Assembly: GCF_000510645.1 (NCBI RefSeq)
Contig: NZ_KI783301.1
Coordinates: forward strand, 812,086 to 876,085
Direction of reading: 5' to 3'
DNA length: 64,000 nucleotides
From: Thermicanus aegyptius DSM 12793
GTDB lineage: Bacteria; Bacillota; Bacilli; Thermicanales; Thermicanaceae
Each line of letters begins with the position of its first letter. Position 1 is the first letter of the stretch. The translations under genes and the position numbers were made by a program. Of this stretch, positions 17,103-19,161 are shown one piece after another. The notes beneath the pieces are model-generated. The model saw only the letters and a program-made list of their open reading frames with translations. It was not told the DNA's origin and did not search any database.

Positions 17103-18041
17103 TTGGCCGTTATCGGGCCGACCGCAGTGGGGAAAACGGTATTAGGGATTCTCCTTGCGGAGAAGTTTGATGGAGAGATTATCTCCGGGGATTCCATGCA
17201 AGTCTATAAAGGGATGGATATCGGAACCGCAAAGGCCACTCCGGAGGAGAGGAAGCGGATTCCCCACCACCTGATCGATATCGTCGAACCTTGGGAATCT
17301 TTTTCCGTGGCCGATTTTCAACGTCTTGCCCTGCAAGCGGTTCAGGAAATCAGAGAGAGGGGAAGGCTTCCGATCCTGGTGGGTGGGACCGGGTTATATG
17401 TGAAAGCTCTTCTCTATTATCCCCATTATTCTTTCACTCCGGAGGGGAAAAGGGAGGAAATCCGGAAGAAATGGGAAGCGCTTGCCGCCCTCCATGGCTC
17501 CTTGGCCCTTCACCGGGAAGCGATGAAGGTGGATCCGAAGGCTGCCGGAAAGCTTCATCCCCATGATGCCCGGCGGCTGGTACGAATTCTGGAGGAGTAT
17601 GAGCTTACCGGCAAACCTCCCAGTCGGCGCATTCCGGAGCAGGAATTCCTCCGGTCTCCTTTTGATCTCCTCCTCATCGGGCTTACCTTAGAGCGAAAAC
17701 ATCTGTACCGACGGATTGAAGAGCGGGTAGATCGGATGATGAACGAGGGTCTGTTGGAGGAAGTAAAACGGCTTCTTGCCGTTGGGGTTCCGAAAGAGTC
17801 AACGGCGATGCAGGGGTTGGGGTATAAAGAACTGATTCCTTATCTGGAAGGTAAAATCACCCTTACGGAAGCCGTTCAAGAGATGAAAAAACGAACTCGA
17901 CAATTTGCCAAAAGGCAGCTTACTTGGTTCCGCCACATGAACGGCATCCACTGGTTTTCCATGGAGGAGGAGGAGCGTGAGGATTCCCTCCATAAAATAT
18001 TTCAGATTGTAGCAGGAAAGTTTCATTTCATGGAGAATTGA
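17103..18041 (+). CDS. miaA: tRNA dimethylallyltransferase MiaA
   Basis: MiaA transfers dimethylallyl from its pyrophosphate to A37 of tRNAs reading UNN codons, making the substrate of MiaB. From the TTG at 17103 it has 312 residues, starting immediately at the P-loop GPTAVGKT, then SGDSMQVYKGMDIGTAK and GGTGLYV. The TTG has no ribosome site and would cut into the first beta strand. The frame is open back to 17076, and initiation at an ATA at 17079, 8 nt after GGGGTG and overlapping the previous stop, would give the usual N-terminus (EQKKEPLLAVIGPT). I give the canonical-codon start as the minimum extent. hfq follows, as in many bacteria. Confidence 0.95.
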   Translation: MAVIGPTAVGKTVLGILLAEKFDGEIISGDSMQVYKGMDIGTAKATPEERKRIPHHLIDIVEPWESFSVADFQRLALQAVQEIRERGRLPILVGGTGLYVKALLYYPHYSFTPEGKREEIRKKWEALAALHGSLALHREAMKVDPKAAGKLHPHDARRLVRILEEYELTGKPPSRRIPEQEFLRSPFDLLLIGLTLERKHLYRRIEERVDRMMNEGLLEEVKRLLAVGVPKESTAMQGLGYKELIPYLEGKITLTEAVQEMKKRTRQFAKRQLTWFRHMNGIHWFSMEEEEREDSLHKIFQIVAGKFHFMEN

Positions 18042-18071: not shown

Positions 18072-18314
18072 ATGAAACAGACGGTCAACATTCAAGATAC
18101 CTTTCTTAATCAGGTGAGAAAAGAAAATATCCCGGTTACCATTTACCTGGTCAACGGCTTTCAATTGCGGGGATTGATCAAAGGGTTCGATAACTTCACC
18201 GTCGTATTGGATTCGGAGGGGAAACAACAGCTGGTCTATAAGCATGCCATCTCTACGTTTACCCCCCTTCGTAACGTCAATTTAAACGTCAACACCGAAA
18301 GCAATAACGGGTAG
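18072..18314 (+). CDS. hfq: RNA-binding protein Hfq
   Basis: The 80-residue protein is a typical bacterial Sm protein: Sm1 motif with [11 protein letters not shown]-like ITIYLVNGF (here [13 protein letters not shown], about 24-36), FDNFTVVLD, and the Sm2 motif YKHAIST (about 57-63). Hfq forms a ring hexamer that binds small RNAs and U-rich ends. It lies directly downstream of miaA, the conserved arrangement. Confidence 0.97.
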
Positions 18315-18378: not shown

Positions 18379-18660
18379 GTGAAGATCACGGAGAAAGCGC
18401 GAAAAAAGCTGGAAGAGATGATCTCCGGGAAAGACCTCGTCTTGAGGGTTTTCATGACCGGTTATGCGTGAGACGGACCACAAATTCAATTGGCTCTGGA
18501 TGAGACCTACTCAGAAGATCAGATCCTCCTCATCGACGGAATCCGGGTGATCTTGGAGGAACCGATGGATACCTATTTGGAGAGGGCGACGTTGGATTAC
18601 CGGGAAGGATTGCTGCAACGGGGATTCTTTTTTCAGGGTGTGAAAGTGGCCGAATGTTGA
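18379..18660 (+). CDS. HesB-like selenoprotein candidate with in-frame UGA (Sec31)
   Basis: Starting at GTG 18379 the frame encodes a 93-residue HesB/IscA-like protein if the TGA at 18469-18471 is read as selenocysteine: LRVFMTGYA-U-DGPQIQLALDE, then LIDGIRVILEEPMD, LDYREGL and a final AEC. In HesB/IscA proteins a conserved Cys occupies the U position (G-x-x-C-x-G), and a HesB-related selenoprotein family (TIGR01911) is known. Similarity continues in frame after the TGA, and a hairpin fitting bacterial SECIS rules lies downstream. No other in-frame start exists upstream. Only one C-terminal Cys remains instead of the usual CxC. Role: probably iron-sulfur or redox related. The alternative is a nonsense mutation. 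Confidence 0.7.
18492..18507 (+). promoter_or_regulatory. Predicted SECIS hairpin downstream of the UGA
   Basis: GG, one bulged C, then TCT (18492-18497) pair with AGA and CC (18503-18507), with a five-base loop GGATG at 18498-18502. The loop begins 27 nt after the UGA. Published bacterial SECIS rules ask for a short stem, a loop with G in its first two positions and a spacing of about 16-37 nt; all are met. The stem is only 5 bp. Confidence 0.5.
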
Positions 18661-18681: not shown

Positions 18682-18714
18682 AAAAATGGGGCAATCTAAG
18701 GATTGCCCTTTTTT
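18682..18714 (+). terminator. Intrinsic terminator of the miaA-hfq-hesB operon
   Basis: A perfect 8-bp stem, GGGCAATC / GATTGCCC (18689-18696, 18701-18708), loop TAAG, is preceded by an A run and followed by six T. Confidence 0.92.
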
Positions 18715-18792
18715 GTTTCATCAGACGAATTCCCGGTGTGATTTACGCAAGGTACAGGATCGGTAAAAAAAGGAAGAAAGGAGAAGGTGGAG

Positions 18793-19161
18793 ATGGCGGA
18801 AAAAAATCTGCTTGCCTTTTTTAAAAGCCCGGAGCAAGCGAAGGAAGCGAAGGAAATCTTAGAAAAAATCGGCGTTGATACGATACAAATCGATGACTTT
18901 AGTCGGTACCCGGCCGAGGATCGGGAGGATGTGAGGCAAACCTTATCCGGCGATTTTGCCGGCCTGGCCGATCTCACGGAAGAAAAGGTCCCCACCGGGA
19001 AAAATGAAGCAATCCTCATGGCTGCCGATCCTCTGTCGAGTGGAATGAGCGTTGGGAACGGGATTGTGACGGGATATCATATCCTCTTAACGGCTGTCAT
19101 GGAGGAAGAAAAACATCAGGAAGCCATCAACATCGTGAGAGGTTTGGGAGCGATCATCTAA
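18793..19161 (+). CDS. Small uncharacterised protein, two alpha/beta halves
   Basis: I do not recognise this 122-residue protein. The N-terminal half (LLAFFKSPEQAKEAKEILEK, about 6-25) and the C-terminal half (YHILLTAVMEEEKHQEAINI, about 95-114) both look like a strand followed by an acidic amphipathic helix, as in small ferredoxin-like or YflT-like stress domains. A Gly/Ser-rich centre (SSGMSVGNGIVTG) separates them. There is no signal peptide or membrane segment. The ATG at 18793 is chosen over the GTG at 18787 because AGGAG lies 9 nt upstream. It stands alone between two terminated units. Confidence 0.7.
   Translation: MAEKNLLAFFKSPEQAKEAKEILEKIGVDTIQIDDFSRYPAEDREDVRQTLSGDFAGLADLTEEKVPTGKNEAILMAADPLSSGMSVGNGIVTGYHILLTAVMEEEKHQEAINIVRGLGAII

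Follow-up and report, generated by a model that had tools for sequence, protein, structure and literature searches.

The locus raises the question of whether a HesB-like gene that follows hfq and is interrupted by an in-frame UGA encodes a selenoprotein. The first-pass annotation had proposed a likely HesB-like selenoprotein, and we have re-examined this proposal using the frame itself, its relatives, its downstream RNA signals and the genome around the window, the window being the whole 64,000-nucleotide stretch of DNA that was analysed. Three features define the frame, in which TGA was translated as U:

18379-18660, forward strand: predicted gene for a HesB/IscA-like selenoprotein of 93 residues, running from a GTG start to a TGA stop, with a single UGA in frame
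18469-18471, forward strand: in-frame UGA that is predicted to encode selenocysteine (U31) and aligns with the first conserved Cys of IscA (invariant U/C column)
18655-18657, forward strand: codon of the single conserved C-terminal Cys, C93

The translation reads VKITEKARKKLEEMISGKDLVLRVFMTGYA-U-DGPQIQLALDETYSEDQILLIDGIRVILEEPMDTYLERATLDYREGLLQRGFFFQGVKVAEC, with the motif LRVFMTGYA-U-DGPQIQLALDE around the UGA, in which residues 31-34 (U-D-G-P) constitute a UxGP motif; 62 codons follow the internal TGA, and the frame ends with the stop at 18658-18660. When U was read as Cys, the best NCBIfam match was NF038090 (E 4.4e-12, residues 2-86), TIGR00049 matched over nearly the full length and across the TGA (E 5.9e-12), and Pfam PF01521 (Fe-S_biosyn) scored 27.3 bits against a gathering score of 26.3. 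The AlphaFold2 model (pLDDT 90) has the predicted A-type fold, its best match in the PDB being E. coli IscA (1r94), with 1s98 (also E. coli IscA), 1x0g (another IscA) and 2d2a (SufA) among the other matches. The 62-residue part downstream of the TGA gives a family match by itself (E 5.5e-5), so the frame past the stop resembles real coding sequence, and the initial observations of a single TGA exactly at the conserved Cys of HesB/IscA proteins and of homology-like sequence beyond it are both borne out. The 30 residues before the UGA, taken alone, match no NCBIfam family, as is expected at such a short length; this is also what would be seen if the locus made a 30-residue truncated peptide or a regulatory leader and the downstream homology were residual, but the region after the UGA is conserved with the family at both the protein and the SECIS level, and we give that explanation practically no chance.

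The position of the gene next to hfq had been noted from the outset. Its surroundings are as follows:

17103-18041, forward strand: miaA (tRNA dimethylallyltransferase), upstream of hfq (Pfam IPPT, E 5e-93)
18072-18314, forward strand: hfq, the upstream neighbour, with 64 nt from its stop to the gene (Pfam Hfq, E 1.7e-35)
18688-18716, forward strand: likely intrinsic terminator downstream of the gene, at 18688-18709 plus its T run, with a 9-bp stem (terminator scan, consensus match only)

The gene lies on the same strand as hfq. Neither hfq nor miaA adjoins any of the 29 other relatives' loci (with flanks of at most about 1.5 kb either way), and the linkage is therefore probably incidental. 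Between the predicted selenoprotein gene and mecA lies a 124-amino-acid open reading frame (18787-19161) with no Pfam match.

The comparison covered 61 relatives and then 399 genomes of the class, none of the genomes returned being from the same genus or family as the window organism. The top-scoring matches in both searches were HesB-like proteins of small size (about 92-105 residues), many with a single TGA. This TGA occupies the same column in all 15 extracted Sec-type loci (the window locus and 14 others), the Cys-type homologues carry Cys in the U31 column, and in alignments of nine and 26 rows that column is U or Cys in every relative, with an identity of 25-36% between the window protein and its relatives. 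All nine sequences of alignment A1 have C93, whereas canonical IscA proteins end in CxC; a single C-terminal Cys, which had been remarked on as a departure from CxC, is therefore the norm of the subfamily. In the tree the window sequence sits on a long branch (1.6) with the Sec-type rows nearest by path, its placement being uncertain. A search of a genome-contig collection with the protein returned only one Cys-type relative, which was of no help, and a plasmid search returned only distant homologues of below 60% identity.

UGA-bearing genes of other kinds were also noted. Unlike the UxGP proteins, locus L024 (genome G017) encodes a canonical IscA-like protein with a C-terminal CGCG, in which U takes the place of the first Cys (SGGUSGFSYGMALD). 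It represents a separate Sec-bearing subgroup, and additional TGA-containing matches in G017 and G054 may belong there too. Loci L091, L092 and L114-L119, the latter all from one family-level group (f36), represent further UGA-bearing HesB-like subgroups (for example, APGUGGPRYFAALDE and VPGUGGPIYKLALDE) with the same SECIS core. In L071 (G369), a Cys-type HesB-like gene, the in-frame TGA falls at the non-catalytic residue 63 of the match (IENUVVPH, with Arg in relatives) and more likely reflects a decayed copy or a sequencing error than Sec.

The first-pass annotation had also pointed to a SECIS-type hairpin after the UGA, and two features are placed there:

18490-18509, forward strand: predicted SECIS hairpin of the bacterial type, GGCTC-TGGAT-GAG(A)CC plus flanks (core conservation and pattern search)
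18495-18504, forward strand: conserved SECIS core TCTGGATGAG, 26 nt from the first base of the UGA

The loop of the predicted hairpin begins 25 nt after the UGA and has a G in its small apical loop, and the stem contains a bulged A that is absent from most relatives. We rejected hairpin energy as proof of a SECIS element: at -5.0 kcal/mol the hairpin is equalled by 71 of 150 codon-shuffled controls, so its stability is not significant and by itself proves nothing. The hairpin is thus present as claimed, with a core conserved in Sec-type relatives, but is no more stable than shuffled sequence. It is conservation, not energy, that carries the case for a SECIS element: 13 of the 15 Sec forms (window included) have TCTGGATGAG at this offset, against 0 of 15 Cys forms (Fisher p 1.8e-6). 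The rows of this comparison are not independent, but the Sec forms span about ten family-level groups and are only 25-36% identical to the window protein. A scan of the 399 genomes for the pattern TGA-N6-CC-N15-TCTGGATGAG, in which no protein homology was used, found 30 sites in 29 genomes versus one for the reversed pattern that served as control, and 29 of the 30 sites lie in HesB-like frames in which Pro is the third residue after U. As the pattern was derived from the Sec forms in hand, the recovery of these was expected, and independent support comes from the additional hits. The window genome has one match only, at window position 18469. An Rfam scan of the window gave no matches.

Decoding of this UGA as selenocysteine would need the corresponding machinery, the absence of which had been named as the main ground for abandoning the selenoprotein reading. 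The genome around the window (3.66 Mb in a single contig, 98.6% complete) was searched for it, and all four components are present, so that this objection falls away: selA (592 bits, C1:2731478-2732842), selB (350 bits, C1:2551515-2553389), a tRNA-Sec gene with anticodon TCA, UCA in RNA (64 bits, above the Rfam gathering score, C1:2554459-2554550), about 1.1 kb from selB, and selD (416 bits, C1:3058431-3059357). Targeted family searches, which had located selD (L050 of this genome, G000), also found the gene for the formate dehydrogenase alpha subunit FdhA (L083; 812 bits, C1:422607-424628). Each has an in-frame UGA at the usual Sec position, within SGUGCK in SelD (LSSKSGUGCKIG) and within RTUHAPSVAGL in FdhA (CNRTUHAPSVAGL), and both the selenophosphate synthetase SelD and FdhA are themselves predicted selenoproteins; counting the HesB-like protein, the predicted selenoproteins of this genome thus number at least three. 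The UGA might instead be decoded as another amino acid, such as Trp, or be passed by generic near-cognate read-through. In a genome with dedicated Sec machinery, whose FdhA and SelD use UGA at canonical Sec sites, and with the aligned residue being Cys and never Trp, we find this scarcely credible.

The relation of the gene to known families can be described along several lines: (i) the HesB-like selenoprotein family (TIGR01911 HesB_rel_seleno; PMC1794560, PMC5029168, PMC13188914) carries Sec within UxGP at the position of the first Cys of IscA, is about 93 residues long, has its SECIS element inside the coding frame immediately behind the UGA, and has FdhA and SelD as common companions, all as found here, while the window protein differs from it in having U-D-G-P rather than U-G-G-P, in its long branch and in its position after hfq; (ii) NF038090 (IscA_HesB_Se), the top NCBIfam match, scores 46.2 bits against a cut-off of 85, a shortfall shared with most of the UGA-bearing relatives tested from this class; (iii) IscA/SufA/ErpA proteins (TIGR00049) have the predicted fold (PDB 1r94, 1s98 and 2d2a) and their first Cys at the position of U31, but three Cys with a C-terminal CxC, where the window protein has Sec for Cys, the single C93 and a shorter C-terminus; (iv) the HesB-like selenoprotein MMJJ_08070 of Methanococcus maripaludis, for which Sec insertion was shown by 75Se labelling and a disruption mutant of which still fixes nitrogen (PMC11097638), is alike by family name only and belongs to an archaeal Sec system. 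The first-pass annotation was right that HesB-related selenoproteins form an established family, with 11 members in a 2006 survey (PMC1794560), 90 from 86 organisms in 2016 (PMC5029168) and UxGP listed as their published motif in 2026 (PMC13188914). The window protein falls below the TIGR01911 cut-off (27.2 versus 66.35 bits).

UGA-bearing relatives score 40-64 bits with TIGR01911, and of five tested only one reaches either cut-off, the 85 bits of NF038090 being attained by one of the five; judged from these sequences, the curated models under-call this lineage, missing most of the UGA-bearing relatives tested. The low scores thus weaken formal membership in TIGR01911 or NF038090, not the claim that the protein works in the manner of a HesB-like selenoprotein. 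The scores and the long branch could also be read as signs that a Cys-type HesB/IscA gene is decaying into a pseudogene and has acquired a TGA at its Cys codon by chance; against this, the remaining frame is open, the invariant residues including C93 are retained, the TGA falls at the one catalytic column, and Sec-type relatives have an identical SECIS core, which makes decay very improbable. Hairpin energy, the bulged A, the sub-cut-off scores with both models and the branch length of 1.6 were counted as points against the selenoprotein reading. Set beside the Sec machinery, the alignment of U with Cys and the family-wide SECIS core, they leave us with little doubt that the HesB-like gene is a real selenoprotein gene with Sec at the UGA at 18469. 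With the HesB domain, the UGA at the first Cys within UxGP, the downstream SECIS and selA, selB, selC and selD all in place, the gene is, on sequence grounds, a divergent new addition to the already known UxGP-type family of HesB-like selenoproteins.

The reading frame, the predicted fold, the pairing of U with Cys in the alignments, the SECIS signature and the full set of Sec genes are all established computationally, and we infer from them that selenocysteine is inserted at residue 31. The gene would encode a 93-residue selenoprotein of the HesB/IscA fold, in which SelB with Sec-tRNA(UCA) would recognise the SECIS hairpin, some 25 nt beyond the UGA, and would insert selenocysteine at position 31, the place of the first ligand Cys in ordinary A-type Fe-S proteins. 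U31 and C93 might jointly form a metal- or Fe-S-binding site or a redox site, as the corresponding first and last Cys do in IscA. A TIGR00049 search of the genome found no second A-type (IscA/SufA/ErpA) protein (next match, E 0.17), yet the genome has a SUF cluster with sufB and another member of the SufB family, probably sufD, so an Fe-S-related role of the selenoprotein is plausible, if unproved. That this protein, as the only A-type member, took over an Fe-S carrier role (or a related metal or redox role) beside a SufA-less SUF system, making general Fe-S supply partly selenium dependent, is a speculation that we consider improbable.

The UGA/SECIS signature occurs in 22 of the 145 sampled genera of the class, nearly always in HesB-like genes, and the initial remark that selenoproteins are scarce in Bacillales was overstated; the 2006 survey had already listed three selenoproteins from three families in Bacillales (PMC1794560), so the trait is not new in that group. 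To conclude, the window supplies one more predicted HesB-like selenoprotein, divergent but well supported, from a lineage without close sequenced kin among the genomes searched, and TGA-N6-CC-N15-TCTGGATGAG provides a compact DNA signature that finds HesB-like Sec genes across the class with almost no false hits. With a SUF cluster and no other A-type carrier found, this genome is a reasonable place to probe the role of HesB-like selenoproteins.
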